The notes below the pieces were generated by a model. It was not told the DNA's origin, searched no databases, and saw only the letters and a list, made by a program, of their open reading frames with translations. DNA of 64,000 bases from Asterias amurensis (lineage: Eukaryota > Echinodermata > Asteroidea > Forcipulatida > Asteriidae), in the NCBI RefSeq assembly GCF_032118995.1, contig NC_092666.1, positions 6,646,501-6,710,500 on the forward strand, in the 5' to 3' direction. The translations under genes were made by a program, and so were the position numbers. Below are positions 3,197 to 59,831 of this stretch, piece after piece (within the stretch, counting starts at the first letter, position 1; each line of letters opens with the position of its first letter).

Positions 3197-4458
3197 CAGT
3201 GGCGTAACTAGACATTTTCGTTTGGTGGGGCAAGTGGGGGCAAAGATTAAATTTGGGGGGGGCCAAAGAAGTGCAAGATTATTATTAAATATGTTAACTG
3301 ATATATAGTTGATACACACCAATGCAGTTCTAAAACAGTCTATAGTCAGCATGTAACAAAAGATTGCGAAAACAACAAAATCTTAGAGAACATGTCATTT
3401 TGTATAAGATAAAACTCTTTGACTGTATAAAAGGATTAAATTACCAACTGTGGTCAACAAGTACCAATTTAGAGTTGTACACGGTATTCTCAACTAGGCT
3501 TTGTGGGTGTGTAAATACCCAAAACATAATAATATTAGGTCAAGTAAAAATAGAAAAATAGAAATGTTTAGCGTCCCCGCCCGCTTCCTTTTTACAGGAC
3601 ACCTCTTTTTTTTTTCTTAAGTTTTTTTATGCACATTTTTTTTTTCTTTTTTTTTTTTTGAAAAAGGGTTATTTTAAATGATCTCAGCAAAAAAAAAAAA
3701 AAATCTGAATGTCTTGTCTGAATGCCTTGACCAAACTGTTTCATTAATGTTTTGTGTATTTCAGCAGCAGAAAAAAAAACAGTTGATATTTGACATTCAT
3801 GGCGACCATCTTGAAATAAAAAATAAAAAGCCCCTCCTCCTTCCTTATTTTTGAGAAACCCAGACACTAAACATGTTTCTTTTTTTACTCGGCCTTATTG
3901 TAACAAAAATACAGGATCGAAATTGTGGGTGTTTAATAATCACATTTTAGTTACGAAACGGATATTTAAAAATAATAGGCCTACCTCTCAATTGCACCGC
4001 TTGCTTCAAAGGAGAAGAAATGGTCTAAGCAACCTTTTTCGCTGGCCATTTTTGTGCTGTAGTAAATTTCTCTGTAGTGCATCTGACCATGGAGGTAGCA
4101 TGATCTGACTTTGTGTTTACGGAGCTATTGGTCTGCGTTCAGACCACCACGTATTTAACAGAACTTTGTCACATCCTGCACTCTCTGTAACCGCAAAACC
4201 ACAACAAACATTTACCGCCAATACGATCGCGCGCGCGTTTCCACGCATTTTTCATGTTATAGTCCACATAGGGCCTACTGATAATGAATAAAAGTTTTCC
4301 GTTTTACGGCAGCATTTTATGCAGCCTTAAACGATTTATATATAAGGCCTATAAGAATATACTTATCTCTGATTTCATATGGGGGGGGCAAGAGGGGGGC
4401 AAGGGTTCTGAGCGGGGGGGCGCCGGCCCCCCCTGCCCCCCCTCTGGTTACGCCACTG
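3197..4458. mobile_element. Non-autonomous hAT DNA transposon
   Basis: The termini are imperfect inverted repeats, CAGTGGCGTAACTAGA on the left and TCTGGTTACGCCACTG on the right. The element is bounded by an exact 8-bp target duplication, CCTCTCCT (3189-3196 and 4459-4466). CAGNG termini plus an 8-bp duplication are diagnostic of the hAT superfamily. The subterminal regions are G-rich on the left and C-rich on the right. The 1262-bp interior has no transposase reading frame, only poly(T)/poly(A) runs and unknown sequence, so it is non-mobile without help. A 15-bp palindromic relic of another family lies inside it at 4088-4102. Confidence 0.9.
4088..4102. mobile_element. 15-bp CATGGAGG-family micro-insertion or footprint
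   Basis: CATGGAGGTAGCATG is flanked on both sides by the exact 7-mer ATCTGAC (4081-4087 and 4103-4109). The left end matches the termini of the elements at 7498, 36,920 and 59,969, which also have 7-bp duplications. It may be an internally deleted insertion or an excision footprint. Confidence 0.6.
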
Positions 4459-6661: not shown

Positions 6662-7011
6662 AGGACTTGGGTACCTTTTCAAAATTTCCTTAGATTTACA
6701 TTTAACTTACAGGGTTTGAAGACAATGATAGTGGAAAGTTTCCCTTCAAACTTTACTTACTGAGGTGCTGTAGTTTTTGAGAAATGAGTAAAACAATGTT
6801 ATAATAAGTTTGTAAATGCTTAAAATAATTTTCGTCTCATGAGACAAAAATTATTTTCATGACATTGTTTTACCATTTCTCAAAAACTACAGCACCTCAG
6901 CACGTAATATTTTCAGGGAAGCTTTCTACTATCATCATCTTCAAACTGTGTAAGTTTAGTGTAAATCTGTGGACATTGTGTTTTTTGTCCTACAAAAGTT
7001 ACATACACCCT
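6662..7011. repeat. K2 foldback MITE inserted at TTAA
   Basis: Long inverted-repeat element with arms of more than 150 bp (tgaggtgctgtagtttttga on one arm, tcaaaaactacagcacctca on the other). It is bounded by TTAA at 6658-6661 and 7012-7015. Joining the flanks restores the tandem-satellite unit, so TTAA is a true target duplication. Ends are AGG...CCT. Other copies are at 17,131, 19,047, 24,131, 34,297 and 58,797. Confidence 0.9.
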
Positions 7012-7367: not shown

Positions 7368-7497
7368 GGTTGTGGCACAAAATTGAAAAAGAATGAGTTT
7401 ACATCAACATCTCTACTCACCTCAACAGTTAAACTTGTAGTCTGTGATGAGAGTCATCTAGCTGGACTTGACACAGTCCTTCATCAGTTGGTGAAAC

Positions 7498-7529
7498 CAT
7501 GGAGGAAGAAAATATTTTCTTCCTCCATG
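7498..7529. mobile_element. 32-bp palindromic micro-transposon with 7-bp target duplication
   Basis: A perfect 32-bp palindrome starts CATGGAGGAAG and ends CTTCCTCCATG with no loop. It is flanked by exact GTGAAAC copies at 7491-7497 and 7530-7536. It is two terminal repeats fused head to head with no interior. The same termini occur on the 618-bp element at 59,969-60,586. Confidence 0.8.
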
Positions 7530-7771
7530 GTGAAACTCAGTCCAGAAAGCATTGATTGAAGCCTCAAGATTAGGGGCGTGTCGTCTCCAAAGGGCATCTT
7601 CTCAATCTGTAGAAAATAAACAATATTTAACATTTATTTTTGAGCAACTTTTTTTAATGAAAGAGTAATATCTTTGATGAATATTTCAGTCGGAGTGCAA
7701 TCATGTGCAAGGAACTTCTCCAGCTCCAATCAGTTCTTCAAATAGTTAGACTTACAGACATGCAGCATCCC

Positions 7772-17128: not shown

Positions 17129-17130
17129 TT

Positions 17131-17474
17131 AAAGGATTTTGGTACTTTTTTGTAGCACAAAACTCAATGTCCAAAGATTTACATTAAACTTACACCGTTT
17201 GAAGATAATGATAGTAGAAAGCATACCTTAAAATATAAGTTGCTGAGGTGCTGTAGTTTTTGAGAAATGAGTAAAACAATGTCATGAAAATACGTTTTAC
17301 ATGCTAAAATATTTTTATGACATTGTTGTACTCATTTCTCAAAAACTACAGCACCTCAGCAAATAATATTTTCAGGGAAGCTTTCTACTATCATTATCTT
17401 CAAACTGTGTCAGCTTAGTGTAAATCTGTGGACTTGTGTTTTTTGTCCTACAAAAAGTACATAGAACCTTTATG
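17131..17474. repeat. K2 foldback MITE
   Basis: Starts ttaaaggattttggtacttt and ends aaaaagtacatagaaccttt. The long arms share gaggtgctgtagtttttgag and its complement, with the usual tacatgctaaaat loop. Confidence 0.85.
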
Positions 17475-19046: not shown

Positions 19047-19414
19047 TGATTTGGGTACTTTTTGTAACACAAAACACATTGTCCACAGATTTACGTTAAA
19101 CTTACACAGTGGGAAGATAATGATACTGAAAGCGTACCTTAACACATCCGTTGCTGAGGTGCTGTAGTTTTTGAGAAATGAGTAAAACAATGTCATGAAA
19201 GTAAATTTTTACATGCTAAAATATTCTTTGTCTCATGATCACTGAGACAAAAAATTATTTTCATGATATTGTTTTACTCATTTTTTCTAAAACTAAACCA
19301 ACTCAGCAGGAAGCTTTCTTTTCTTCTATCATTATCTTCAAACTGTGTACATTTAGTGTAAATTTGTAGACATTGTGGGTTTTTTTTCCAACAAAAAGTA
19401 CATAGACCCTTTAA
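19047..19414. repeat. K2 foldback MITE
   Basis: Left ttgggtactttttgtaacac, right aaaaagtacatagacccttt followed by AAAA. Right arm is more diverged (ttctaaaactaaaccaactc). Confidence 0.8.
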
Positions 19415-20230: not shown

Positions 20231-21037
20231 CAAAGTATTACTTTAAAGAATGCGGGGAATTTACAAGATGCCTGCAAACTTATTTTGGTAACCTGTTTTT
20301 GGCGTGGTTTTTACGGTCGAGTGCATTTTGCTGAGCAAACAAAAATCTTAACAACAAAATTACCAAGAATAAAGAGGGGGATCAGCGTGTTCATAAACTG
20401 GATTAAAACAAAAGTCAGGCTAATATGGTTGGTTTTCAGAGGAATAACTAGAAAATACCCCTTTCCCCCCAACAGTGAACCGGTATTATTATTATCATTT
20501 ATTATTATTATTATTTCATTATTATTATTATTTTTTTTTGGGGGGGGGGGAGGGGGAGGTTAGTATAGTTTAATTTATTTGTAAATTTAAAAAAAATGAA
20601 TGTCAAAAATTTACTTTTTTGTAATGTTGCCTCAGCACATCTTTGTGAAGTGCATGACAAATTATAGCCATTTTTATAAAAATCGCTGAAGAACATTGGA
20701 CAAATGATTTTTTTTTGTAATGGGGGTGGGGGGGAATGAGAAAATGTCTCGGAACACTGCAAAGAAATGTCTTGAAAACTGAGTTGGGCACCTCAACAGC
20801 TCTCCATTGTTCGTTACCAAGTAAATTTTACGCTAACAATTATTTTGAGTAATTACCAAAAGTGTCCATGCCTTTACCAGTCACTATAATGTAAACGTCA
20901 TAATGTAATTTGGCTGATAACCTATGTTTGTTTTTTACATGCTTAGCAGGTTTTTGTGCATACAAGCTTAATGGAAATTGGACCCTTTGCTGAAAGACGC
21001 CTCTCTTTGACAACTACCAATAGTGTCCAGTGTCTTT
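20230..21037. repeat. K1 MITE fragments and simple sequence
   Basis: (att)n with a 12-bp poly(G) run at 20,480-20,555. K1 fragments at about 20,786-20,880 (ctctccattgttcgttacca ... tgcctttacc) and 20,996-21,040 (gtgtccagtgtctttaa) look like the two ends of one broken copy. Confidence 0.6.
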
Positions 21038-21414
21038 AAATGAACCTGTTGCCTTGGATCGGTCGAGTTGGTCTTTGAAAAGCGTTTGTAACCGTTTGTT
21101 ATAAAATGCATATGATTAGAAAGATATTTTAAAAGCAGAACATAATGATCCACACAAACATGCCTCGAAATTGCGTGGTTTTCCTTTTACCTCGTCGACT
21201 AACACGGTCGGCTATTCATCGGAGTCAAATTTTTGACTCCTATAAATGGCCGACCGTGTTAGTTTGCAAAGTAAAAGGAAAACCACGCAATTTCGAGGCA
21301 AATGTGAGTGGATCATTGTATTCTACTTTTAAAAGATATTCTGCATTTTATAACAAACGGTTACAAACGCTTTTCAAAGACCAACTCGACCGATCCGAGG
21401 CAACGTGTTCCTTA
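21038..21414. repeat. K4 foldback MITE (GCCTTGGATCGGTCGAG)
   Basis: Almost the whole element is one inverted repeat: gttgccttggatcggtcgag on the left and ctcgaccgatccgaggcaac on the right, and gtcgactaacacggtcggc against gccgaccgtgttag near the centre. Left flank TTAA, right ccTTAAacg. Copies lie at 22,270 (half) and 41,018 (whole). Confidence 0.85.
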
Positions 21415-21842
21415 AACGATATTTCAAACCAAATTCTTCTTCATGTTGTGAATTGAAACAAAACTCGAATAATCTGAATGTCACTTTGTCAAAATCGAAC
21501 TTGTCAAAACATCCTTTGAAAACCCTGTATAATGGAATATGCAAGCGAATCAAACGTCACTTTCGATCGTAGATAACAGGAATCATTTAAGTTATTGCTA
21601 ATCTTGTACTTAGTGAGGGATAACAATAAGAAATCAATAATAGTAACATGGGACACTGAAAGAAAAAAATCTCACACAAATAATTTCCATACAAAACTTC
21701 AAGAATAAGTTGGTGTTTTATTCTCTTGAGAAAATAGAATAAGCTGTTGCAAACAACTTACCAACAAAATGGAAAGAAAATAGTTAATGGCCTGACATTT
21801 CGACCTAAGCCAAGTCTTATTCTTTTATTCTCTCATTACATT

Positions 21843-26590: not shown

Positions 26591-29422
26591 TTATTCATTT
26601 ATGACCAAATGGGGCAAACCACGCCATGCATTATCAATATGTGTAACATCTTCATCTTCAAGTAAACAGAAGCTCAAGTAAAGCTTCTGAAGGTTCTCCA
26701 TCTTCTTGAAGTGATGGGCCCATGATGCAGCAGAACCACCAAGGGATCTATTTTCTGAAAGATCCAACTCAACCAAGTTGGGAAGATCACACAGTGCAGG
26801 ATCAATATGTGTCATATCTTCACTCGTCAAAAAAGGGAACCTCAAGTAAAGCTTCTGAAGGTTCTTCATCTTCTTGAAGTGATGGGCCCATGATGCAGCA
26901 GAACCACCAAGTGATTTATTTTTTCTTAAGATCCAACTCAACCAAGTTGGGCAGATCACACAGTGCAGGATCAATATGTGTCATATCTTCACCTGTCAAT
27001 AAGCAGCCATTCAAGACAAGCTTCTGAAGGTTCTCCATCTTCTTGAAGTGATGGGCCCATGATGCAGCAGAACCACCCAGGGATTTATTTTCTGAAAGAT
27101 CCAGGTCAACCAAGTTGGGCAGATCCCACAGTGCAGGAACAATATGTGTCATATCTTTACCTGTCAATGAGCAGTCACTCAAGAAAAGCCTCTGAAGGTT
27201 CTTCATCTTCTTGAAGTGATGGGCCCATGATGCAGCAGAACCACCAAGGGATCCAATTATCGAAAGATGCAACTCAACCAAGTTGGGCAGATCCCACAGT
27301 GCAGGAACAATATGTGTCATATCTTCACCTGTCAATAAGCAGTCACTCAAGAAAAGCCTCTTAAGGTTCTTCATCTTCTTGAAGTGAAGGGCCCATGATG
27401 CAGCAGAACCAATAAGGGATGTATTTCCCCCAAGATCCAATTTAACCAAGCTGGGCAGATCACACAGTGCAGGAGCAATATGTGTCATATCTCCACCTGT
27501 CAATGAGCAGTAATTCAAATTAAACGTCATAAGGTTCTCCATCTTCTTGAAGTGATGGGCCCATGATGCAGCAGAACCTCCAAGGGATTCATTCATCGAA
27601 AGATCCAACTCAACCAAGTTGGGCAGATCACACAGTGCAGGAGCAATATGTGTCATATCTTCACCTGTCAATGAGCAGCAAATCAAGACAAGCCTCTTAA
27701 GGTTCTTCATCTTCTTGAAGTGATGGGCCCATGATGCAGCAGATGAGGCTGCTCCTGATAAAGCAGAATATTCTTCAGTACTCTCATTCAATTCGCATTC
27801 ATCCAAAGTCACTGTTGAAAGATTCGTCATTAAGCTCATAGAGTCTACCAAGTCTGACATACACCCACCCAAGTGACAGGAATGTATCACTACTGACTGT
27901 ACCTTCTCAAGATAATCAGTTTGTTTGTTTTCCACTGTGCATGTGTGAACATTTCTAAGCAAATATGTGAATGAGTTAAGAGTGTCCCTGTTCCAAAAAT
28001 TAATGTCTATATGATCTGTTAGAACAGACTTCATGAACTCCACTGGGGGTAAATCTTTTGTCTGACCCTCAAAGTAGTAGTCAAGGCCGATTTCCATCCA
28101 GCCTGGTACTTTAGCAAGTGTTTGTAAAATGCTATTTGTACATGTCATGTTGTCACCAGCACAAAACCGCAAAATATAATGAAAGTCACCACTTCTAGAA
28201 ATGATCATTTCATCCAGGCTCTTTTGGAATTCCACCGGGTCTGTTTCTAACAAGCTTTGTAAGTATTTACCAGCACAACACTCTTGAAAAGTCTTATGAA
28301 GGAATTGAATGCTGTTGTGACTTTTCATTCCCTTCAAGACCTTTTGTCTTGTAAGAATACCTGCTTTTATGGCAGATTCAAGCACATTTGGTTCAAACAC
28401 TTGCTCAGGAAAAGCAAGCTGTTGTTCTGGAGCAAGAAGACCAAGCAAGGCAATCTTTCCAAGTTCATTTGTTACTTTTGATATCTCATTTGATGACATA
28501 TCAGTTTTTCTGTGAAATATGTACTCCAATGCCTCACTGTAGATACGAGACATTGTTTCTGGGAGTTTAGAATCCTCTCTCCACAAAATGCACATCAACA
28601 GAAGTAGCATTGGACTCTTTGCCAAATCAGATAAAGCATTTGAGGATTTGATCCTCCGAATAAGCCCTTCTGCTTTGTCATGTTCATCCGAGTAAAATCT
28701 CTTCACATACTTCTTGATATCTTCACTATCAAAACCTTCAACCTTGACCTGTGTGAAAGGCTCTTGAATTAATGATCTTGTCACTAATTTATCATAGTGA
28801 GAGGGGCGAGTGGTAACTACAACAAAACACTCTCTGTCTTTCTTACGGTTCAGGATCTTTAGAATTGAACCAAATAAGGCTTTATCAAGGGCACGGGTCT
28901 TCAACTCATCAAAGCCATCAAACAAGAACAGTACTTTCTCTTGATTGTGACTGATAAAAGAACTCAACGAGTTCTTATCTACACTTGTTACTCCGCTTAA
29001 AAGTTGGTCAAAAATTGAGTCAACTAGCTCTGTGCTTTGTTCAACTGCACTCATTCTTATAACAAATACAAGCTCAAACTGCTGCAGTGCTTCACCACAT
29101 GCCCAATCATAAGCCATCTTATCAATGAGGGTAGACTTCCCTCTTCCAGCTAACCCACTCAAAACAGCCTGATTTATGCAATCACCATCTCTTGTTTTCT
29201 GAAGGAAAATATCCTTATATGACTCCAGTTTCTTTCCAGATTTCTCCAATGTTAATTCTGTAAAGATATCTTTGATGTGTTTCGTGTCATCATCCTCCCA
29301 TGGTATCAGTTTCACATAGCTACCTGTTTTCCTATAATGAGTTCTTATTGCCTTTCCACAACTCTTTGCAGCGACCTGGGCTGGATCGTTTGTCGAATGG
29401 GCTCCTTGCACACTTCCATCAT
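26591..29422 (-). CDS. NLR-A exon 5: NACHT and LRR domains
   Basis: Large exon of an NLR immune receptor, a cytosolic STAND ATPase that oligomerises on sensing. It starts after a 3' splice site (tttacaatcag, 29,422) in phase 1. Counting from the codon at 29,411: a pre-NACHT region with IPWEDDDTKHIKDIFTEL (36-53), Walker A GLAGRGKST (86-94), Walker B LFLFDGFDEL (161-170), sensor-like VVVTTRPSH (197-205), the helical/winged-helix region with KSPMLLLLMCILW and FLHKTFQECCAGKYL, then ribonuclease-inhibitor-type LRRs from about 555. The LRR unit is 57 residues (AASWAHHFKKMKNL...LPNLVELDLS), about 7 times. A +1 shift near 26,930, in a run of A, ends the frame at 26,916 after 831 codons. The LRR pattern continues in the next frame to 26,591. 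This is either a genuine truncation or a base-calling error. No transmembrane segment. Confidence 0.93.
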
Positions 29423-30174
29423 CTGATTGTAAACAAAAAACATGATATGGAACAATTAATCTTGATTCATAAACACGCCCCTTACAGTTTCTCTTCTCCT
29501 ATTGGTGGAGAGCGCGTCACAAGGGGGTGTTTAAACGGTTGATAAGGACCAGCTGGAGCTGTTTATAACCAGCTGACTTCCGCGAGTCGGGCGTGCGCGT
29601 ACACCAATATATCACACAGAGCGCACAATTCATAGCTATTAGTAATCTATTTCTAAGCGCGCGCACGTAAGCTATTTCTAAGCGCGCGCGCGTAAGCTAT
29701 TTCTAAGCGCGCGCGCGTACACACAACCCACGTGCATGAAACAGATTCTTCACAAAGTTTTTGACAAAAATACTTCAAACCTCGAATTTTCATTGTCAAA
29801 GTGTCTATAATTGTATTGTTTTAATGTTTTTTAACAAAAGGGCATTTATGAATGAGAATAAGAGTAGTGACTCGATCATAAACGTCCGTTTAAAACCTTG
29901 CAGGATCGTTGCCATGCGATAAAGGCCCTATCACACGGCAACGACCTTGCCGGATTTAAACGGCCGTTAAAGAACTCGTTGCTACCCTTTTATTCCCTTA
30001 TTTAAATTGTTTCACTTGGCTGCTTGGAGGTTTTTTTAGGAATCACAAACGATATCTGCATCCATTTATTGTTTGCATTACTTGGGTATGTTGACTTTTT
30101 AGTAAAGCTAATCTGCAATCATGTCTCATCTTGTCCCAAGTTGACCATCACAAGAAATGACACCATGTACTTAC
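29423..30174. other. NLR-A intron 4 with a foldback segment
   Basis: Contains a three-fold gctatttctaagcgcgcgc tandem repeat (29,638-29,715) and an inverted pair gtttaaaaccttgcaggatc / gaccttgccggatttaaac (about 29,857-30,000). The latter's orthologue in B is at 49,390-49,590. Confidence 0.6.
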
Positions 30175-34296: not shown

Positions 34297-35202
34297 TTCT
34301 AGTTTAAAAGGGTGTGTGTACTTTTTTCTAACACAAAACATAATGGCCACAGATTTACATTTAACTTAATCGGTTTGAAGATAATGATAGTAGAAAACTT
34401 CCTTTAAAATATTACTTACTGAGGTGCTGTAGTTTTTTAGAAATGAGTAAAACAATGTCACAAAAATAATTTTCGTCTCATTTTTAGCATGTAAAAAGGT
34501 ATTAACTAGTTATGGTATGTTATGGTATGATAGAGAGGTTTCGCAGAGTTGCGGATATGAATACACATACAGATATCGAACCGTACGTGTTCGCGTCAAG
34601 TGAGCTGTGTAGTTTTGTTTCGCAAAATTCTAACGAATACCCTCAACTTGAGGCTCAAGAGGGCGCTATTAACCAAATGGCTGCACCCATGGACAATCGC
34701 CGTTTGTCTTTTTCTGAAGCATGGTGGTTAACAAATGTCCAACTACGTCCATGTATGATACCTCTTATAGACATGGTGAAAACCTGGTACATTTGAAAAT
34801 AACAATCCGCTACAAAAACATGAACAAAATATACTCGTTGTTTACTTACGTGTATGGCGACAGATTCCCATTTTGGGCAACTATTCTAACTTGTGTACAA
34901 CGGTTATACGCCACATGGACCTCAAAAAGTGATGACCTATTATGACGTACACGTTCACGTAAGAGTATCGGTGACTCTGCGAAACCTCTCTAGTATCATG
35001 TTTTACGTTTTTACATGCTAAAAAAATTTTCGTCTTACTAAAACGAAAATTATTTTGTGACTTGTTTTATTCATTTCTCAAAAACTACAGCACCTCAGTA
35101 TGTAATATTTGAAGGGAAGCTTTCTACTATCATTATCTTCAAACCTTGTAAATTTAATGTCAATCTGTGGACATTTTGAAAAAGTATCCGCATCCTTTAA
35201 GG
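34297..35202. repeat. K2 foldback MITE split by an insertion in its loop
   Basis: Left ttaaaagggtgtgtgtactt, right gaaaaagtatccgcatcctt-taa, with the usual arms. The loop is interrupted by 34,531-34,992. The orthologous K2 at 58,797-59,532 is also interrupted in its loop but by unrelated sequence. Confidence 0.85.
34531..34992. mobile_element. 462-bp element with TAGAGAGGTTTCGCAGAGT termini
   Basis: Perfect 19-bp inverted ends TAGAGAGGTTTCGCAGAGT / ACTCTGCGAAACCTCTCTA. Flanks GTATGA and GTATCA may be a diverged target duplication. The interior has no transposase. Copy A only. Confidence 0.75.
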
Positions 35203-35323
35203 AATAAAACAAGATATCAAATCAAATAAGATATTGTTTTTATAGACAATGGTGCCCATTATTACATAACTCATCTACAGATAAATACATTTCAAATTAT
35301 GCACAGTAAGTTTATAGGCCTAC

Positions 35324-35477
35324 CTTGAAGCATTTGTGTGTTTTCTGCTCTCACTAAGTCCCTTGTTTCTGGTGATGGTTGAATATTTTCAACAACAGCC
35401 ATTAATCTTTGTTCTAGTTCTTGAGATTGCCTGGCCATCTCCTCCTCTTTCATGGTCTCCTCACTCTGGTCAGCCAT
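35324..35477 (-). CDS. NLR-A exon 1: N-terminal charged coiled-coil region
   Basis: Starts at the ATG of MADQSEETMKEEEMARQSQE, continues LEQRLMAVVENIQPSPETRD and ends LVRAENTQMLQ at a donor (cttcaag|gtaggc). 154 bp, 51 codons plus one base (phase 1). The Glu/Gln-rich stretch is predicted helical or coiled coil. I chose this ATG because an in-frame upstream extension has no ATG and copy B keeps the same start. A probable 3' splice site (tttgattcctaag) lies 10-15 bases before the ATG, so a 5' UTR intron is likely. Confidence 0.75.
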
Positions 35478-35629
35478 TATCTGACACAATCTTAGGAATC
35501 AAAGAAAGATATTGACTCAGATGCCTTTTCGTGTTTCATTCTTGTCTATGGATCACGACAAACAATATATTTCTGATTAGATGTCAAAGTTCATGAAATA
35601 CTGGTCAGTTATATGATGTAGTCTCTTAC

Positions 35630-35753
35630 CTTCAGTTCAAGGACCAATCAGTGCTTTAGCCAGGCTCATTCACCCAATAGTCCAAAAGACGAAACATCTT
35701 CACTGAAGTCCTAGCCCATTACAAAGTCCATGTTGAGTTGCTTGACAAACCTA
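35630..35753 (-). other. NLR-A 5' UTR exon (proposed)
   Basis: A donor gaactgaag|gtaagaga at 35,630 is conserved in copy B at 60,609, where a transposon sits only 22 bp into the intron. The upstream limit is uncertain (possible acceptor ctctcaaaattag). Short upstream ORFs occur, which could lower translation. Confidence 0.4.
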
Positions 35754-35817
35754 ATTTTGAGAGCAAGAATTCAAAGAAATGTTCTAAAACAATAAAGATG
35801 CATGGTGATATAAATTC

Positions 35818-36062
35818 AGGTTTTGAACTTTTCCTTGTCTGACTGTGTTAATAATCGAGTTATAACGAGTAATATCAACTCATGACAAGACCTAAGAAAT
35901 CCTCTTTTATTGTTCAACAGCTGAGTGTGGAACTTCTCTCTAGTCACATGATCCATCCATAAGATGCCCTCCTCAATGTGCTCCATGTGTGGACAGCTTT
36001 TCAAGTCTTCAATTATCCTAACAAGTCTTTTTATCAGTCGTTTATTGAAAAGGTTATATTAT
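35818..36062 (-). pseudogene. CARD-like death-fold remnant upstream of NLR-A
   Basis: The minus strand encodes LFNKRLIKRLVRIIEDLKSC, PHMEHIEEGILWMDHVTREK, FHTQLLNNKRGFLRSC: alternating hydrophobic helices with the T-R-E-K..QLL..K spacing seen in CARD domains. The first helix is cut off by the SINE at 36,064. After RSC the frame differs between copies A and B by small indels. I read it as a decaying N-terminal CARD exon, though a still-used alternative exon cannot be excluded. Confidence 0.35.
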
Positions 36063-36063
36063 A

Positions 36064-36190
36064 AGGTGTCGTGGCCGAGCGGATAAGAGCACCCAACTTA
36101 AGCACTTTGTGCTTCTGTTCAGCAGAGTGTGGGTTCGAATCCCGGTCGTGACACTTGTGTCCCTGTGCAAGACACTTAACTGCTTCTCTT
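36064..36190 (+). mobile_element. tRNA-derived SINE head, truncated
   Basis: gtgtcgtggccgagcggata (A box) and tgtgggttcgaatcccggtc (B box), then cacttgtgtccctgtgcaag. The body is missing in copy A; the full element is at 61,033-61,372 in copy B. Confidence 0.8.
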
Positions 36191-36640
36191 ACCAATCAAA
36201 ATTACCAATAATGTTCAGTGTCTTTACAATTATATGTGATGACCCATATGCCACATCAAACTCAGCCACTTCTTGGAAAAAGCAAAAAATATCTTTACAG
36301 TGAAGACAGCCATGAACTGAAGGAAGGGTGAGAATTTGAGAAAGCTGACCACCCACCCTTATCAATAAAATGTAAAAAAAGGTAGCACTAATCTAATGAC
36401 ACTTCTCATAGATTGATAAATACTCTCAACAACGAAAAGCCCATAAAAACGTACTTGTTAGCTGTTGAGTGAGACAGAAATCCCCAGCAATAATGTGGTT
36501 TCGATAATTGTTCACAATCATCTACAACTGTTAACAATTTACGCATATTTTATGTTTCTCAGATTTCGGATGCTTGATTGAAAATGGAAATTTGAATCAT
36601 AGAATTAGAAATTATGATGTTCATTCGCACATGCTGCAGT
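36191..36640. other. Spacer, no gene
   Basis: Contains a K1 MITE end (ttaccaataatgttcagtgt) at about 36,204. No exon supported. Confidence 0.4.
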
Positions 36641-36919
36641 CATGGAGGTAGAAATTTTGCAGCTAGCTAAATATGCAGTTGGTGCCCGCTGTCACCTTGC
36701 TACAAAAGTTAATGCAACTGACAATTGATATTCTTGTGAAAAGTTTTTGCTAATTTTTAAAACAACAGACATCGTTTTCATCTAAAATTTCAAAGGAATC
36801 CAGATCTTTTTACTTAAAAAAAAATCAAAGTATAAATTGAGTATTCAAAATCGGCATTTGACCGTCCAAAACAAATCAACAACACTACCTTTCAACAAAG
36901 TTGTGATACTAACTGTACA

Positions 36920-36954
36920 CATGGAGGTAGAAATTTAGTATTTCTACCTCCATG
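36920..36954. mobile_element. 35-bp palindromic micro-transposon
   Basis: Starts CATGGAGGTAGAAAT and ends ATTTCTACCTCCATG with a five-base centre. Flanked by CTGTACA (36,913-36,919) and CCGTACA (36,955-36,961), a 7-bp duplication with one mismatch. A further lone end, catggaggtagaaattttg, is at 36,643. Confidence 0.75.
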
Positions 36955-36989
36955 CCGTACACAAATAATATTTAAAAGCTCCAGGCAGG

Positions 36990-40454: not shown

Positions 40455-41017
40455 TGTTAATCGAAACAAAGAATTTGATTGTCACTTTGTCAAGATCGAA
40501 CTTGTCAAAACTTCCTTTGAAAACCATGATAGAATATGCAAGTGAATCAAAGGTCACTTTCGATCGTAGATAACAAGAATCATTTAAGTTATGGTTAATC
40601 TTGTACTTAGTGAGGGATAACAATAAGAAATCAATAATAGTAACATGGGACACTGAAAGAAAAAACCTCACACAAATAATTTCCATACAAAACTTCAAGA
40701 ATCAGTTGGTGTTTTATTCTCTTGAGAAAATAGAATAAGCTGTTGCAAACAACTTACCAACCAAATAGACCAATGGCATTATATGCAAAAAGAAAAAATA
40801 GTTAATGGCTTGACGTTTCGACCTTAGCAGAGTCTTATTCTTTTATTCTCTTATTACATTCTACTACAGTTCAATAGGCAAGGCAATGAGAGTGTAATTT
40901 TTCATATCATTGTACCTTACATACACTCGCCTCAATGAAAAGGTGCATAAATAACAAAACTAAAAAACACTATTTCATCAGTCAACATAACTTGTAGATA
41001 CATTTTTATCAAGGAAT

Positions 41018-41395
41018 TAAAGGTTCACGTTGCCTTGGATCGGTGGAGTTGGTAATTGAAAAGCGTTTGTAACCGTTTGTTATAAAATGCATATTGGTAA
41101 GAAATATATTTTAAAAGTAGAATATAATGATCCATACAAGTATCACTCTAAATTGCACAGTTTTCCTTTAACATCGTCGACTTACACGGTCGGCCATTTA
41201 TGGGAGTCAATTTTTTGACTCCCATAAATGGCTGACCGTGTTAGTAAAATAAAAAGAAAACCACGCAATTTTGAGGCAAATTTGTGTGGATCATTGTATT
41301 CTACTTTTAAATCATCTTTCTATGCATTTTATAACAAACAGTTACAAATGCTTTTCAAAGACCAACTCGACCGATCCAAGACGTGTTCTTTTAAA
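41018..41395. repeat. K4 foldback MITE, full
   Basis: gaattaaaggttcacgttgc to gacgtgttcttttaaattt; TTAA at both ends. Complete inverted arms as in 21,038-21,414. Confidence 0.85.
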
Positions 41396-45337: not shown

Positions 45338-48300
45338 TTATCTTCCGGTTACAACCAAATGGGGCAAACCATGCAATGCATTTTCAACATGTGTCATATC
45401 TTCATCTTCAAGATAACAGAAGCTCAAGTCAAACTTCTGAAGGTTCTCCATCTCCATGAAGTGATGGGCCCATGATGCAGCAGAATCACCAAGGTCTACA
45501 TTTTCTGAAAGACCCAACTCAACCAAGTTGGGCAGATCACACAGTGCAGGAGCAATATGTGTCATATCTTTACCTGTCAATGAGCAGCCCCTCAAGACAA
45601 GCTTCTTAAGGTTCTTCATCTTCATGAAGTGATGGGCCCATGATGCAGCAGAATCACCAAGGGATTCATTCATCGTAAGATCCAACTCAACCAAGTTGGG
45701 CAGATCACACAGTGCAGAAGCAATATGTGTCATATCTTCACCTGTCAATGAGCAGCTACTCAAGACAATTCTAAGCCTCTTACGGTTCTTCATCTTCTTG
45801 AAGTGATGGGCCCATAATGCAGCCGAACCACCAAGAGATTCATTTCCCCAAAGATTCAACTCTTACCAAGTTGGGCAGAACACACAGTGCAGGAGCAATA
45901 TGTGTAATCTCTTCGGCCGTCAATACACCGAACCACAAGTAATCCTTAAGGTTCTTCATCTTCTTGAAGTGATGGGCCCATGATGCAGCAGAACCACCAA
46001 GGTCTACATTTCCTAAAAGATTCAATTCAATCAAGTTTGGCAGATCACACAGTGCAGGAGCAATATGTGTCATATCTTCACCTGTCAATGAGCAGCCACT
46101 CAGGACAAGCTTCTGAAGGTTCTTCATCTTCTTGAAGTGATGGGCCCATGATGCAGCAGAACCACAAACGTACGGGTTACAGGAAAGATCCAACTCAACG
46201 AAGTTGGGCAGATCACACAGTGCAGGAGCAACATGTGTCATAGTTTCACCTGTCAATAAGCAGTCCCTCAAGACAAGCTTCTGAAGGCTCTTCATCTTCT
46301 TGAAGTGATGGGCCCATGATGCAGCAGAACCACCAACGTACGGGTTACCGGAAAGATCCAACTCAAGGAAGTTGGGCAGATCACACAGTGCAGGAGCAAC
46401 ATGTGTCATAGCTTCACCTGTCAATAAGCAGTCCCTCAAGACAAGCTTCTTAAGGTTCTTCATCTTCTTGAAGTGATGGGCCCATGATGCAGCAGAACCA
46501 CCAAGGGATTGATTTACCGAAAGATCCAACTCAACGAAGTTGGGCAGATCACACAGTGCAGGAGCAATATGTGTCATATCTTCACCTATCAATGAGCAGT
46601 AAGCTAAGACAAGCCTCTTAAGGTTCTTCATCTTCTTTAAGTGATGGGCCCATAATGCAGCCGAACCACCAAGAGATGTATTTGCCGGAAGATTCAACTC
46701 AACCAAGTTGGGCAGATCACACAGTGCAGGAGCAATATGTGTCATATCTTCACCCGTCAATGAGAAGCCCCTCCAGACAAGCTTCTTAAGATTCTTCATC
46801 TTCTTGAAGTGATGGGCCCATGATGCAGCAGAAAAACAAACGTACGGGTTACCGGAAAGATCCAACTCAACGAAGTTGGGCAGATCACACAGTGCAGAAA
46901 CAATATGTGTCATATCTTCACCTGTCAATGAGAAGCCCCTCCAGACAAGCTTCTTAAGATTCTTCATCTTCTTGAAGTGATGGGCCCATGATGCAGCAGA
47001 ACCGCTAAGGTATCCATTTTCCGAAAAATCCAACTCAACCAAGTTGGGCAGATCACACAGTGCAGAAACAATATGTGTCATATCTTCACCTGTCAATGAG
47101 AGGCCCCTCCAGACAAGCCTCTTAAGGTTCTCCATCTTCTTGAAGTGATGGGCCCATGATGCAGCAGAACCGCTAAGGTATCCATTTTCCGAAAGATCCA
47201 ACTCAACCAAGTTGGGCAGATCACACAGTGCAGAAACAATATGTGTCATATCTTCACCTGTCAATGAGAAGCCCCTCAAGACAAGCCTCTTAAGGTTCTT
47301 CATCTTCTTGAAGTGATGGGCCAATGATGCAGCAGATGAGGCTGCTCCTGATAATGCAGAATATTCTTCAGTACTCTCATTCAATGTGCTAACAACTATG
47401 TCCACCTTTGAAAGATTCGTCATTAAGCTCATAGAGTCTACCAAATCTGACATACACCCACCCAAGTGACAATTAGTTACCCTTACTGACTGTACCTTCT
47501 CAAGATAATCAGTGTGTTTGTTTTCCACTGTGCATGCATGAACATTTCTAAGCAAGTATATGAATGAGTTAAGAGTGTCCCTGTTCCAACCGTCAATGTC
47601 TATATGATCTGTTAGAACAGACTTCATGAACTCCACTGGGGGTAAATCTTTTGTCTGACCCTCAAAGTAGCAGTCAAGGCCGATCTGCATCCCGCCTGGT
47701 ACTTTAGCAAGTGTTTGTAAAATGCTATTTGTACATGTCATGTTGTCACCAGCACAAAACCGCAAAATATAATCAAAGTCATCACTTCTAGAACTGATCA
47801 TTTTATCCAGGCTCTTTTGGAATTCCACCGGGTCTGTTTCTAACAAGCTTTGTAAGTATTTACCAGCACAACACTCTTGAAAAGTCTTATGAAGGAATTG
47901 AATGCTGTTGTGACTTTTCATTCCCTTCAAGACCTTTTGTCTTGTAAGAATACCTGCTTTTATGGCAGATTCAAGCACATTTGGTTCAAACACTTGCTCA
48001 GGAAAAGCAAGCTGTTGTTCTGGAGCAAGAAGACCAAGCAAGGCAATCTTTCCAAGTTCATTTGTTACTTTTGATATCTCATTTGATGACATATCAGTTT
48101 TTCTGTGAAATATGTACTCCAATGCCTCACTGTAGATACGAGACATTGTTTCTGGGAGTTTAGAATCCTCTCTCCACAAAATGCACATCAACAGAAGTAG
48201 CATTGGACTCTTTGCCAAATCAGATAAAGCATTTGAGGATTTGATCCTCCGAATAAGCATTTCTGCTTTGTCATGTTCATCCGAGTAAAATCTCTTCACA

Positions 48301-49030
48301 TACTTCTTGATATCTTCTTTATCAAAACCTTCAACCCTGACCTGTGTGAAAGGCTCTTGAATTAATGATCTTGTCACTAATTTATGATAGTGAGAGGGGC
48401 GAGTGGTAACTACAACAAAACACTCTCTGTCTTTCTTACGGTTCAAGATCTTTAGAATTGAACCAAATAAGGCTTTATCAAGGGCACGGGTCTTTAACTC
48501 ATCAAAGCCATCAAACAAGAACAGTACTTTCTCTTGATGGTGACTGATAAAAGAACTCAACGAGTTCTTATCTACACTTGTTACTCCGCTTAAAAGTTGG
48601 TCAAAAATTGAGTCAACTAGCTCTGTGCTTTGTTCAACTGCACTCATTCTTATAACAAATACAAGCTCAAACTGCTGCAGTGCTTCACCACATGCCCAAT
48701 CATAAGCCATCTTATCAATGAGGGTAGACTTCCCTCTACCAGCTAACCCATTCAAAACAGCCTGATTTATGCAATCACCATCTCTTGTTTTCTGAAGGAA
48801 AATATCCTTATATGAATCCAGTTTCTTTCCAGATTTCTCCAATGTTAATTCTGTAAAGATATCTCTGATATGTTTGGTGTCATCATCCTCCCATGGTATC
48901 AGTTTCACATAGCTACCTGTTTTCCTATAATAAGTTGCTATTGCCTCTCTACAGCTCTTTGCAGCGACCTGGGCTGCAGCGACCTGGGCTGGATCTTTTG
49001 TCGAATGGGCTCCTTGCACACTTGGTTCAT
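45338..49030 (-). CDS. NLR-B exon 5: NACHT and LRR domains
   Basis: Paralogue of NLR-A exon 5, starting after tttttaatcag at 49,030 in phase 1. The NACHT part (Walker A GLAGRGKST, Walker B LFLFDGFDEL, VVVTTRPSH) is almost identical to A; its N-terminus has an extra five-residue repeat (QVAAAQVAAK). The LRR array is longer: about 12 copies of the 57-residue unit against 7 in A, several nearly identical at DNA level (for example the WRGFSLTGEDMTHIVSALCD units). The first frame runs 1059 codons from 49,019 to 45,840. It ends through a +1 shift where aacttggttgagttg would be expected and aacttggtaagagttg is found. The LRR pattern continues in the next frame to 45,338. The changed sequence resembles a splice donor, so an intron or truncated isoform is possible. 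The shift is at a different place from that in A. Confidence 0.93.
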
Positions 49031-50943
49031 CTGATTAAAAACGAAAAACACGATATGGAACAATTATTCTTGATTCATTTTCTCCACTCCTATTGGTGGA
49101 GAGCGTGTCGCGTGGGGGTGTTTATACGGTTGATAATGACCAGCTGGAGCTGTTTATAACCGGCTGGCTTCCGCATGTTGGGTGCGTAAGATTATCACGC
49201 GGAACGCAATTTAAACCGTTTAGTAACAGCGCATAATCTGTTTCTAAGCACCCGCGCATACACACAACTTATGCCCATCAAACAGATTCTTCACAAAGTT
49301 TTTGAAAAAAATATTTCAAACCTCAAATTTTCAGTTGTCAAAGTGTCTATAATTGTATTTTTTAACATTTTTATCAAAAGGGCATTTATGAATGGGTGGT
49401 GTTGAATAAGGGAATAAAAAGTAGTGACTCGTTCTATAAACATCCGTTTAAAACCTTGCAGGGTCGTTGTCGTGCGATAAAGGTCCTCGCCTTCTGTTTG
49501 GGCCTTTATCACACAGCAACGGCCCTGCCGGTTTTAAACGGCTGTTTAAGAACTTGTCGCTACCATTTTATTCCCTTATTCAACACCATCAATAAATAAA
49601 TTCAGAACAACCTTAAGAGAGATGAATGTAGCTCTAGTACTTCATCATCCATTTATATAATCTTATAACACCCGGCCTTACAACAATTCTGCCTTTTCAT
49701 CTGTTTAGAGCGTGTCACATGATATGTCTTAGTTTTACTAGAAACCCGGCGGCCGTGTGATAGTCGTTTGCCATGCAATAGCAGACTATTACATGGCACG
49801 TGATACCCAGACGTCTTTTAACCCACCTTGAAGCCAATCAGTTGTGTGCTGTGTACCTGAAAAACACGTACGAATACACGTGTACGAGGATGATAAATAG
49901 TCTGTTGGGTGTAATGAAACAAATATTGACTGCCTTTACTTGTGCTTTGGTTAAAACTCCTGCTCTCTTGGTAATCCCCGGACCGTTCCATTTTTTCCTC
50001 AGCTTCGCCTTTTGTATTCTGGTTGGCTGAAACACGGTCACATGGGATGAACTAATATAGGCTAGTGATCGCGCGCGCGTGTTTTGCGGGAATAGTACCA
50101 GAGCGGGGAATAGTCTTTGAATATAGTGCCCGCGGTAACAGCGCCCTCTCTTGACTTGAACCATGAACAACAACTACAAAACTCCTTGTTCTGTTCTTAT
50201 TTGACATTTAAGACCGAGCTGTTATACAACACATATTGACTGGCATAAATCGGTAACTATTGTACGTCCTATTCCCCTCGGGCCTGTGAGTGACCAGAAG
50301 AGGGGCCTATTTCCCTTGGTCTTCGGCCTCGGGAAATAGGTTCGCTCTTCTGGTCACTCAAAGTCCCTCGTGGGAATAGACGTATACATAGTTACCTCGT
50401 TGCCAGTCAATATGTGTATACTAGAGCATGTCCATTCAATATCAACCACCATGGCAGGGTTTGCCCTTAACTTTGTCAGCAACTAGCCAGCAGGACCAAT
50501 TAGCTTGATATTTCACAAGTTCATCATTTTTTTCACCGGACCACTCGCAGGGTATTCTAACTGGTCTTGGGTGTTTTAACTGACATTAGGTCAGCGGACC
50601 ACTAGCGCGTAGTGTCCGAAAACAACCGGATATAAACAGAGCACCAGCTGGTCATTATCAACCGTTTAAACACCCCCATGTGATGCGCACTCCAACAATA
50701 GGAATAGCGAAACTGTCTGAGGTATTTATGAATTCCTATTAAATAGCCATAACACTAAACAAGCCAGTCGGACCACTTGGAGAGTGTTCTAACTGGTCCT
50801 CAGGTGTTTTAACTGACATTAGGTCAGCGGACCACAGTTAAGGGAGAACGCTGAATGGTTTTTATTGCAAGAAAAGCCACCGTATGCTACAATGATATCA
50901 TAAAGTGAATGGAATGTTCAAAATGTTCATGGGATGTACTTAC
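49031..50943. other. NLR-B intron 4
   Basis: 1.9 kb against 0.75 kb in A. Contains the foldback segment 49,390-49,590 shared with A, a hairpin at 50,223-50,421, and repeated gaccactngcgngtgttctaactggtc motifs (50,538-50,840). No exon supported. Confidence 0.5.
50223..50421. repeat. Foldback element in NLR-B intron 4
   Basis: Arms tatacaacacatattgactg...gagtgaccagaagagg and complement; right end cagtcaatatgtgtata. Imperfect stem of roughly 90 bp per arm. Not found in copy A. Confidence 0.8.
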
Positions 50944-52452: not shown

Positions 52453-55400
52453 CATGGGCGTCAATCAGGGGGGGGGGGACAGGGGGACATGTCCCCCCCA
52501 CCTTTTGGAGGGTGGGGGACACAATATCAAATGTACCCCAACCTTTTTGACCACCTTTATCATGAAGCCCAAGTTTTGCACTGTGTAAGACGAAACCAGG
52601 TGTCCCTATGGGCATTAATCCCGTGGGCAAAAGATGACACAATTTTTTGAAGGGTGGGGGACACTATATCAAATGTCCCCCCTCAAAATTGGCCCTAGAT
52701 TGCATCACAGAGCATCTAAAATGCAAAATTTCCCCGGGCTCTTAATCGGGCCCGCACCTCACGACGTAAAGGCTTCCCACACGCATGGTCCATCGTTGAC
52801 AGATTTGCACCTCCCCCTGAAAGAGTGGAAGGAACGTGAACCCCCACCCCATTTTCGAAGGGTGGGGGACACAGTATCAACTGTTCCCCGTGTCTTTTGA
52901 CCACCTTTATCATGAAACTCATGTTTTGCACTCTGGAACTGTGGAGCAATGGAACACAATATTCCCACAGCTCATTGTTCTGTTTCGTTTGCCATTTGGC
53001 CGCTAAATGGCCTAAAGATTGCACCATCTAAAAATACAAAATTTTCCCGGGCCCTTAAGCGGGCCCGGACCCATGCCGTAAAGGTTTCACATTCGCGTGC
53101 TCACTCTTTGGCAGATTTGCCCCCTAAAATTCGTGTCAGATCAACACCTGAACATGCTGTTAACCAAAAAGATTCTACTGCTGCTAACATTTTTACAGAT
53201 GTTCTGTTCCATTCTGTAAGTGAAAGCCTCTTATTGGCCTAAGATTGCACCACAGAGCATCTAGAATGCAAAATTTTCCCGGGCCCTTAAGCGGGTCCGG
53301 ACCCATGCCGTAAAGGTTTCACATTTGCGTGCTCACTCTTTGGCAGATTTGCCCCCAAAAATTTGTGTCATAGATCAACACATGAACATGCTGTTAACCA
53401 AAAAGATTCTACTGCTACTCACATTTTACAGATGTTCTGTTCCATTCTGTAAGCCTCTTATTGGCCTAAAGATTGCACCACAGAGCATCTAGAATGCACA
53501 ATTTTCCCGGGCACTTAAGCGGGCCCGAACCCATGCCGTAAAGGTTTCACATTCGCGTGCTCACTCTTTGGCAGATTTGCCCCCTAAAATTCGTGTCAGA
53601 TCAACACCTGAACATGCTGTTAACCAAAAAGATTCTACTGCTGCTCACATTTTTACAGATGTTCTGTTCCATTCTGTAAGTGAAAGCCTCTTATTGGCCT
53701 AAGATTGCACCACAGAGCATCTAGAATGCAAAATTTTCCCGGGCCCTTAAGCGGGTCCGGACCCATGCCGTAAAGGTTTCACATTTGCGTGCTCACTCTT
53801 TGGCAGATTTGCCCCCAAAAATTTGTGTCATAGATCAACACATGAACATGCTGTTAACCAAAAAGATTCTACTGCTGCTCAAATTTTACAGATGTTCTGT
53901 TCCATTCTGTAAGCCTCTTATTGGCCTAAAGATTGCACCACAGAGCATCTAGAATGCACAATTTTCCCGGGCACTTAAGCGGGCCCGGACCCATGCCGTA
54001 AAGGTTTCACATTTGCGTGCTCACTCTTTGGCAGATTTGCCCCCAAAAATTTGTGTCATAGATCAACACATGAACATGCTGTTAACCAAAAAGATTCTAC
54101 TGCTGCTCACATTTTACAGATGTTCTGTTCCATTCTGTAAGCCTCTTATTGGCCTAAAGATTGCACCACAGAGCATCTAGAATGCACAATTTTCCCGGGC
54201 CCTTAAGCGGGCCCGGACCCATGCCGTAAAGGTTTCACACTCGCGTGCTCACTCTCTCACAGATTTGCCCCCTAAAACAAGGTTCGTAGATCCGCACTTG
54301 AAGGTGCTGTTAACTCAAAAGGTTCTACTGCTGCTCACATTTTACAGATGTTCTGTTCCATTCTGTAAGCCTCTTATTGGCCTAAGATTGCACCACAGAG
54401 CATCTATTATGCAAAATTTTTCCGGGTCCTTCAGCGGGCCCGGACCCATGCCGTAAAGGTTTCGCACTCGTGTGCTCACTCTTTGACAGATTTTCCCCCT
54501 AAAACTTGGTTCATAGATCCGAACTTGAAGATGCTGTTAACTCAAAAGGTTCTACTGCTGCTCACATTTTACAGATGTTCTGTGCCATTCTGTATGCATC
54601 TTATTGGCCTAAGATTGCACCTCGGAGCATCTAGAATGCAAAAAATTTCCGAGCCCTTAGGCCTGGACCCAAGGCCATAAAAGGCTTTGTGTTCCGCTTT
54701 ATAGCAGGCTCCATCTTTAATACCCACCAAGGATGAACTGCCGTCTGAGCATTATAATGCAGAAACAATATGGATATTACGAAGCTATAATTGAGTTGTT
54801 TTTTAGGTACAATAACCATGAAAGCAAAAATAGGTGTATCATAGCTTGAAATAGGCATTAAATTCCAACATCTGAGAGGGGGGAACATCACCACTCAGAC
54901 TCCCTAGATTGCATCACAGAGCATCTAAAATGCAAAATTTCCCCGGGCTCTTAATCGGGCCCGCACCTCACGACGTAAAGGCTTCCCACACGCATGGTCC
55001 ATCGTTGACAGATTTGCACCTCCCCCTGAAAGAGTGGAAGGAACGTGAACCCCCACCCCATTTTCGAAGGGTGGGGGACACAGTATCAACTGTTCCCCGT
55101 GTCTTTTGACCACCTTTATCATGAAACTCATGTTTTGCACTCTGGAACTGTGGAGCACTGGAACACAATATTCCCACAGCTCATTGTTCTGTTTCGTTTG
55201 CCATTTGGCCGCTAAATGGCCTAAAGATTGCACCATCTAAAAATACAAAATTTTCCCGGGCCCTTAAGCGGGCCCGGACCCATGCCGTAAAGGTTTCACA
55301 TTCGCGTGCTCACTCTTTGGCAGATTTGCCCCCTAAAATTCGTGTCAGATCAACACCTGAACATGCTGTTAACCAAAAAGATTCTACTGCTGCTAACATT

Positions 55401-57233
55401 TTTACAGATGTTCTGTTCCATTCTGTAAGTGAAAGCCTCTTATTGGCCTAAGATTGCACCACAGAGCATCTAGAATGCAAAATTTTCCCGGGCCCTTAAG
55501 CGGGTCCGGACCCATGCCGTAAAGGTTTCACATTTGCGTGCTCACTCTTTGGCAGATTTGCCCCCAAAAATTTGTGTCATAGATCAACACATGAACATGC
55601 TGTTAACCAAAAAGATTCTACTGCTGCTCACATTTTACAGATGTTCTGTTCCATTCTGTAAGCCTCTTATTGGCCTAAAGATTGCACCACAGAGCATCTA
55701 GAATGCACAATTTTCCCGGGCACTTAAGCGGGCCCGAACCCATGCCGTAAAGGTTTCACATTCGCGTGCTCACTCTTTGGCAGATTTGCCCCCTAAAATT
55801 CGTGTCAGATCAACACCTGAACATGCTGTTAACCAAAAAGATTCTACTGCTGCTCACATTTTTACAGATGTTCTGTTCCATTCTGTAAGTGAAAGCCTCT
55901 TATTGGCCTAAGATTGCACCACAGAGCATCTAGAATGCAAAATTTTCCCGGGCCCTTAAGCGGGTCCGGACCCATGCCGTAAAGGTTTCACATTTGCGTG
56001 CTCACTCTTTGGCAGATTTGCCCCCAAAAATTTGTGTCATAGATCAACACATGAACATGCTGTTAACCAAAAAGATTCTACTGCTGCTCAAATTTTACAG
56101 ATGTTCTGTTCCATTCTGTAAGCCTCTTATTGGCCTAAAGATTGCACCACAGAGCATCTAGAATGCACAATTTTCCCGGGCACTTAAGCGGGCCCGGACC
56201 CATGCCGTAAAGGTTTCACATTTGCGTGCTCACTCTTTGGCAGATTTGCCCCCAAAAATTTGTGTCATAGATCAACACATGAACATGCTGTTAACCAAAA
56301 AGATTCTACTGCTGCTCACATTTTACAGATGTTCTGTTCCATTCTGTAAGCCTCTTATTGGCCTAAAGATTGCACCACAGAGCATCTAGAATGCACAATT
56401 TTCCCGGGCCCTTAAGCGGGCCCGGACCCATGCCGTAAAGGTTTCACACTCGCGTGCTCACTCTCTCACAGATTTGCCCCCTAAAACAAGGTTCGTAGAT
56501 CCGCACTTGAAGGTGCTGTTAACTCAAAAGGTTCTACTGCTGCTCACATTTTACAGATGTTCTGTTCCATTCTGTAAGCCTCTTATTGGCCTAAGATTGC
56601 ACCACAGAGCATCTAGAATGCAAAATTTTTCCGGGTCCTTCAGCGGGCCCGGACCCATGCCGTAAAGGTTTCGCACTCGTGTGCTCACTCTTTGACAGAT
56701 TTTCCCCCTAAAACTTGGTTCATAGATCCGAACTTGAAGATGCTGTTAACTCAAAAGGTTCTACTGCTGCTCACATTTTACAGATGTTCTGTGCCATTCT
56801 GTATGCATCTTATTGGCCTAAGATTGCACCTCGGAGCATCTAGAATGCAAAAAATTTCCGAGCCCTTAGGCCTGGACCCAAGGCCATAAAAGGCTTTGTG
56901 TTCCGCTTTATAGCAGGCTCCATCTTTAATACCCACCAAGGATGAACTGCCGTCTGAGCATTATAATGCAGAAACAATATGGATATTAAGAAGCTATAAT
57001 TGAGTTGTTTTTTAGGTACAATAACCATGAAAGCAAAAATAGGTGCATCATAGCTTGAAATAGGCATTAAATTCCAACATCTGAGAGGGGGGAACATCAC
57101 CACTCAGACTCCCTAGATTGCACCAGAGAGCATCTACGGCCTAAAAAATTCCCGGGGCCCTAAAGCGGGCCCCGGACCCCACGCCGTAAATGTTATGTCC
57201 CCCCCCACTTTTCAAGACGGATTGACGCCCCTG
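52453..57233. mobile_element. 4.8-kb satellite-filled non-autonomous hAT element (copy B only)
   Basis: Ends CATGGGCGTCAATC and GATTGACGCCCCTG are inverted, and exact 8-bp target duplications CCTATGCT lie at 52,445-52,452 and 57,234-57,241. Terminus CAGGGGCG (right end) plus an 8-bp duplication indicate hAT. Subterminal gtgggggacacaatatcaaa blocks are repeated on the left. The interior is a nested tandem array and contains no transposase. The paralogous intron in copy A lacks it. Confidence 0.88.
52690..57114. repeat. Two near-identical 2209-bp tandem blocks
   Basis: 52,697-54,905 and 54,906-57,114 differ at only a handful of bases (for example gagcatctattatgc versus gagcatctagaatgc). Each block contains about seven 226-231 bp units, each with atgccgtaaaggtttcac, ttaaccaaaaagattctact and cagatgttctgttccattct; units alternate in two subtypes. 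Short ORFs in it are by-products. Confidence 0.92.
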
Positions 57234-59532: not shown

Positions 59533-59677
59533 GAATAAAAATAATATCAAATTAAACAAGATTTGAAAACAAACACTTTTATAGACAATGGTTCCGATTA
59601 TTGCATAACTCAGCTAAAGATGAATACATTTCAAATTAGCGAACAGATTGATACTAATAATCACAGTAAGTTTATAC

Positions 59678-59831
59678 CTTGAAGCATTTGTGTGTTTTCT
59701 GCTCTCACTAAGTCCCTTGTTTCTGGTGATGGTTGAATATTTTCAACAACAGCCATCGATCTTTGTTCTGGTTCTTGAGATTGCCTGGCCATCTCCTCCT
59801 CTTCCGTGGTCTCCTCACTCTGGTCAGCCAT
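59678..59831 (-). CDS. NLR-B exon 1: N-terminal charged region
   Basis: ATG at 59,831; MADQSEETTEEEEMARQSQE, PEQRSMAVVENIQPSPETRD, LVRAENTQMLQ; donor cttcaag|gtataa. Same length and phase as in A, with a few replacements (two Leu-to-Pro/Ser changes in the helical part). Confidence 0.75.

Follow-up and report, generated by a model that had tools for sequence, protein, structure and literature searches.

P transposase cuts at the 3′ end of its element, and its cut in the opposite strand lies 17 bp into the 31-bp inverted repeat (PMC7776569); an excised donor site carries on each side the target duplication plus a 17-nt element tail (PMC2895639). This 17-nt stagger is called atypical, and it is counted among the traits that distinguish P from the other characterised cut-and-paste transposons (PMC7776569, PMC10983969). 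What end joining makes of such donor sites was recorded in Drosophila melanogaster, where Table 1 of PMC2895639 gives the junctions obtained after P{wa} excision in Rad51-deficient flies; the printed rows of that table sum to 66 isolates, and a figure legend in the same paper gives 68. A perfect 30-bp palindrome was present in 14/66 isolates and a perfect 32-bp palindrome with a central TA in 5/66. The sequence between the 8-bp duplications measured 28-40 bp in 28/66 isolates, including 35 bp in five, with the remainder at 16-27 bp (10/66), 5-8 bp (20/66) and 41-44 bp (5/66), while no length is given for 3/66, in which the deletion ran past the duplication.

Related elements have been described in other animals. 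The zebrafish element Pdre2 has the terminal inverted repeat (TIR) CATACCTGTCAAC and subterminal repeats of 12 bp, and the zebrafish enzyme, when it excised Drosophila P in S2 cells, left larger flanking deletions (PMC10983969), which means that clean scars may not be the rule. In Anopheles, P-MITEs hold less than 100 bp of P sequence on either side, and the same source states that Drosophila P needs 138 + 216 bp of end sequence for mobility (PMC1562414).

In the 64-kb stretch of DNA analysed here (the window), we find insertions of 15, 32, 35 and 618 bp that all start with CATGGAGG and are bracketed by 7-bp direct repeats, which are exact at three of the four loci and carry one mismatch at the fourth (36920-36954). 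The three short forms, none of which is assigned to a strand, differ in length and junction. Footprint 1 (4081-4109) reads ATCTGAC, 15 bp (4088-4102) and ATCTGAC, an exact 7-bp duplication, and its insert CATGGAGGTAGCATG is CATGGAGGTAG followed by CATG, that is, 11 nt from one end fused to 4 nt from the other. Footprint 2 (7491-7536) has the exact duplication GTGAAAC on both sides of a perfect 32-bp palindrome, CATGGAGGAAGAAAATATTTTCTTCCTCCATG (7498-7529). Footprint 3 (36913-36961) has a 35-bp near-palindrome (36920-36954) whose 15-bp arms are separated by five bases; it lies between CTGTACA and CCGTACA, a duplication with one mismatch. The arm sequences of the short forms are unlike (GGAAGAAAATA vs GGTAGAAATTT). 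The initial annotation had reported four loci sharing ends and 7-bp duplications, two of them nearly loopless palindromes of 32 and 35 bp; its coordinates, sequences and duplications hold, as do the two palindromes, but the 15-bp copy ends on the right in CATG only and not in CCTCCATG.

A doubtful footprint 4 lies at 36634-36663 (no strand assigned), where CTGCAGT is followed by CATGGAGGTAGAAATTT (17 nt, 36641-36657) and TGCAGC. It is one-sided, as the second end and one duplication base are missing; its flanks, with two mismatches, are on their own not above chance, and a loose flank scan offers the rival flank pair CTGCAGT/ATGCAGT around a 32-bp insert. Because mismatched flanks weigh little unless both ends are fixed, we treat 36641 as a candidate only, and the sample is therefore three clear footprints and one doubtful one. 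The first 17 nt at 36641 and at 36920 are identical and the two diverge at nt 18, so that their agreement ends where a 17-nt stub should end; this holds both if 36641 is a one-sided scar and if it is an element end. We also considered 36641-36954 as a single 314-bp element and found this unsupported, as the flanks CTGCAGT and CCGTACA match at 3/7 positions, and a site at 33046 (CATGGAGGAGTG...) was set aside because its best flank match in the loose flank scan was no better than two mismatches.

The pattern of shared ends and 7-bp duplications is real and non-random. When we paired each CATGGAGG start with a CATG end at a spacing of 12-700 bp, exact 7-bp flanks were present in 3 of the 19 pairs and a fourth pair had one mismatch; among the same 19 pairs, flanking repeats of 5, 6 or 8-11 bp were absent. 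With CATG at both ends and the same spacing, 3 of 1,143 pairs had exact 7-bp flanks, and these were the same three loci. In 200 dinucleotide shuffles, the CATGGAGG start gave 309 pairs, none exact and one with at most one mismatch, and CATGGAGG itself occurs six times on the + strand of the window vs a mean of 0.55 in the shuffles. A looser control that accepted any insert of 12-45 bp with at most one mismatch and left the right end free was satisfied at 7,083 of 63,933 positions (11%) in this repeat-rich window, and for that reason mismatched flanks count only with both ends fixed; we judged this control too permissive and rely on the fixed-end pair test. We also scanned the window for palindromes with perfect arms of 9 or more and a loop of 0-6, bracketed by exact repeats of 5-9 bp, a design that misses 36920 on account of its mismatched flanks. 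The 7498 locus was the only one found, and the scan also picked it up with one extra base of width and a 5-bp repeat. The same scan on 20 shuffles gave no cases for repeats of 5-8 bp.

These controls bear on whether the short loci could be chance palindromes or hairpins such as terminators, a reading to which we give almost no credence. Palindromes comparable to these do exist, as a search for the same ends in 84,980 bacterial and archaeal species genomes returned six stretches, all bacterial (the pattern had no match among viral contigs). Taken as chance controls, however, 0/6 of these bacterial palindromes have exact 7-bp flanks, and the flanks of the one that agrees at 6/7 positions (L001) do so because its AT-rich hairpin extends into them. 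The lack of any exact case in the 200 shuffles counts against a chance origin for the loci with exact duplications, and two such palindromes and a complete element that share their outer 8 bases lie within 64 kb.

We consider it probable that the short sequences were left behind as footprints by the excision of P-superfamily DNA transposons, with the 618-bp sequence as a non-autonomous relative resident in the window. A P-type footprint consists of two duplication copies around stubs of both ends and nothing else, and this is what we observe exactly at 4088 and 7498 and with one mismatch at 36920. The arrangement is that of the P{wa} junctions (PMC2895639), in which fused TIR stubs stand between two duplication copies and the end starts CATG. 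In that published set the perfect 30- and 32-bp palindromes have a 2-nt AT or TA overlap, both palindrome lengths of the window occur, 35 bp among the joins, and a 17-bp form shows trimming at one side (PMC2895639). Unlike the window loci, the P{wa} junctions have 8-bp duplications and different TIR letters after CATG, and they are experimental products of Rad51-deficient flies and were not read from a wild genome (PMC2895639). The initial annotation knew of no description of such elements; Table 1 of PMC2895639 does print junctions of this type, including perfect 32-bp palindromes between target duplications. In our search of the open-access literature, we noticed no title or abstract that treats such palindromes as micro-transposons, and the exact end strings were in none among the matches listed.

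A footprint of this kind would arise in three steps. Insertion would make the 7-bp duplication, as an empty paralogous site shows for the 618-bp copy and as we infer for the other loci. Transposase, if it acts as P transposase is known to, would then cut at the element end in one strand but about 17 nt further in on the other, so that each broken donor end would keep the target duplication and a 3′ tail of 17 element nucleotides. Host end joining would finally fuse the two tails, as the junctions suggest; a 2-nt overlap would account for the 32-bp form, one added base for the 35-bp form, and trimming for the 15-bp form and possibly also for the 17 nt at 36641. The end product would be a duplication, fused ends and a duplication, empty between, and would probably be immobile from then on. 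The exact duplications around a short form could thus stem from the insertion of its parent element.

The junctions fit these steps in detail. The 32-bp palindrome at 7498 fits 17 + 17 nt sharing TA, although 16 + 16 blunt or 18 + 18 with four shared fit too, since the arm length of a perfect palindrome is not uniquely readable. The 35-bp near-palindrome at 36920 fits 17 nt + A + 17 nt, with ends that agree over 15 nt and not 17. Read with 17-nt tails, the end remnants at the three clear loci are 4-17 nt long, and a limit of about 17 nt per stub is consistent with the loci read, a small sample in which the 7498 palindrome is ambiguous. The short forms vary in length and junction, as expected of independent repair events in related elements. 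As judged from these junctions, footprint-like working is the best explanation, and the loci are best explained by a known mechanism, as natural excision scars of P-like transposons in the genome of an animal, a new instance and not a new kind.

Interior loss after insertion, one of the two origins offered by the initial annotation, thus comes close, with 4-17 nt of end left behind, although the loss most likely came about through excision at the 17-nt staggered cut and end joining. In one version of interior loss, resident elements are internally deleted by slippage or by gap repair that is cut short, and joining at the transposase cut plays no part; the P superfamily is known for internally deleted copies (PMC7776569, PMC4168063). 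We regard this as improbable because, on the reading above, no short locus retains more than about 17 nt of end, though the resident TIR is 32 nt long, and random interior loss should often leave more than 17 nt; the loci, however, are only four, and the perfect palindrome is ambiguous.

The other origin offered, in which a transposase mobilises near-minimal end pairs and the 32- and 35-bp palindromes are self-contained micro-transposons, we find very unlikely. The palindromes do have 7-bp duplications around them, yet these on their own would look the same whether a short form or a longer one had inserted. A second end is missing from the 15-bp copy, and the short forms are unlike in length, junction and arm sequence. 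The end sequence stated to be needed for movement of Drosophila P is 138 + 216 bp, and the P sequence in Anopheles P-MITEs is under 100 bp on each side (PMC1562414). It would be surprising if a transposase recognising just the outermost 15-17 bp re-mobilised the interior-free scars as extremely small transposons. With excision footprints as the preferred reading, we turn to the one complete element.

The 618-bp non-autonomous element (59969-60586, no strand assigned) lies between two copies of GTTATAT, at 59962-59968 on the left and 60587-60593 on the right, neither with a strand. It is a true insertion, because a duplicate of the flanking DNA keeps the empty site: in the segmental duplicate at 35,004-36,181, which is 85-95% identical to 59,354-61,150, a single GTTATAT stands at 35608-35614 (unstranded) without the 618-bp element; when the two flanks of the 618-bp copy are joined, their alignment to the duplicate shows no gap at this point. 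For the short loci, neither a filled nor an empty version was found elsewhere within the 64-kb window. The first 11 nt of the element (CATGGAGGAAG) are common to footprint 2, and as it diverges from the footprints after at most 11 nt, it is not their source.

Its structure was compared with traits of the P superfamily. The target duplication of 7-8 bp is represented by GTTATAT, exact on both sides. The terminal inverted repeats start with CA, in the form CATGGAGG, and at 32 nt are close to the ~30 bp of Drosophila and Anopheles P; the left one is at 59969-60000 on the + strand and the right one at 60555-60586 on the - strand, with a match of 31/32. There are also subterminal inverted repeats of 16 nt, the left one, which includes GCGGTACCGC, at 60017-60032 (+) and the right one at 60417-60432 (-), matching at 15/16, and a pair of this kind was absent from 40/40 mononucleotide shuffles of the element interior. 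Stops interrupt all six frames. The element thus fits the P superfamily in the length of its duplication, in the length and start of its TIRs and in its subterminal repeats.

A Pfam scan of 23 open stretches, out of a window total of 533 of at least 45 aa, found no P transposase or THAP domain; the 23 were among the longer stretches, not strictly the longest, and tandem-repeat frames were excluded. Because no transposase was seen, P membership of the elements is something we can only infer, from their ends and duplications. The matches were to NACHT and LRR models, from animal-like NACHT-LRR genes only, together with an AI2M-like HNH match of 12 residues that lies above the cut-off within LRR repeats; weak matches below the cut-off were to DUF5742, UCH_N, YIF1, zf-C2H2_ZN142 and HicB-like_2. 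hAT transposons make an 8-bp target duplication, and no 8-bp flanking repeat, with either no mismatch or at most one, occurs among the 19 CATGGAGG...CATG pairs.

The Pfam scan leaves room for excision by a non-P transposase that also cuts far inside the ends, either Dada-like or of an unnamed lineage, and this we think unlikely, though less so than the alternatives above. Besides the fact that no transposase was seen in the 23 stretches, the 7-bp duplications suit Dada, at 6-7 bp (PMC3706591), as well as they suit Galileo. Dada differs, however, in targeting snRNA and tRNA genes and in complete elements of 4,666-10,979 bp, and its copies with definable ends sit in small RNA genes (PMC3706591), while the window has no tRNA gene and no Rfam match. 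For any non-P enzyme, the 17-nt stagger is among the features that set P apart (PMC10983969, PMC7776569), and the combination of TIR and subterminal repeats matches P (PMC7776569).

Assignment to P therefore remains our preferred reading, and the described P-like families resemble the window elements to different degrees. Drosophila P has a 31-bp TIR and 11-bp subterminal repeats (PMC7776569), vs 32 nt and 16 nt in the 618-bp element, and duplications of 8 bp are given for Drosophila P (PMC7776569), Anopheles P (PMC1562414) and Pdre2 (PMC10983969), vs 7 bp here. Galileo, a member of the P superfamily in Drosophila, typically has 7-bp target duplications like the loci here, and is a cut-and-paste element with many non-autonomous copies (PMC2775673, PMC4168063). 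Its duplication consensus is GTANTAC, and in our tiny sample of left-hand duplications T is second in 4/4 and A sixth in 3/4. Unlike the element here, Galileo has TIRs of hundreds of bp in described copies (PMC2775673) and a strong target consensus. The zebrafish Pdre2/THAP9 P-like elements come from an animal outside the insects and share with the window a TIR that starts CAT and the presence of both terminal and subterminal inverted repeats, but differ in a 13-bp TIR (PMC10983969). The P subfamilies of Anopheles gambiae resemble the window element in TIRs of 27-31 bp and in having non-autonomous relatives with an interior unrelated to P, and the P-MITEs retain more terminal P sequence than the footprints here (PMC1562414).

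If the footprint explanation is true, raw genome sequence holds readable fossils of the long P-type staggered cut, beyond the species where it was measured. Counts of scar arm lengths across animal genomes would then test conservation of the 17-nt cut without experiments, and the same counts would show the mode of germ-line joining (short overlaps, added bases, trimming). A further consequence would be for annotation, where a short palindrome with a target duplication ought not to be labelled a miniature transposon. Clear scars outnumber the one resident copy in the 64-kb window, which hints at frequent excision.

The window holds other repeats. On the - strand, 26916-29498 and 45840-49034 are two long open frames of the NACHT-LRR (NLR) type whose LRR units are numerous and alike; they lie within a repeated block (22.4-30.0 kb vs 41.5-49.6 kb, about 88-95% identical) that represents a local duplication. 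A tandem array with a unit of ~227-228 bp occupies 52693-57190 and consists of two blocks of ~2.2 kb that are 99% identical. Imperfect palindromes of 300-390 bp, ~68-86% self-complementary and in some cases mutually related, are found at 17130-17472, 21033-21419, 41017-41394, 6680-6980 and 19055-19401; no exact flanking repeat of at least 7 bp was found near their ends. At 62253-63408, two 217-bp inverted arms that start TAATAAACTGCGCC, are 94% identical and lie ~720 bp apart form a long-TIR element with an AT-rich flank. Finally, a 180-bp near-palindrome at 1490-1669 has ends that are identical over 25 nt (AAGGCCCGGTCACACAGGCCCCGAT), with AGGGT as a possible flanking repeat of 5 bp, and is a candidate foldback element.
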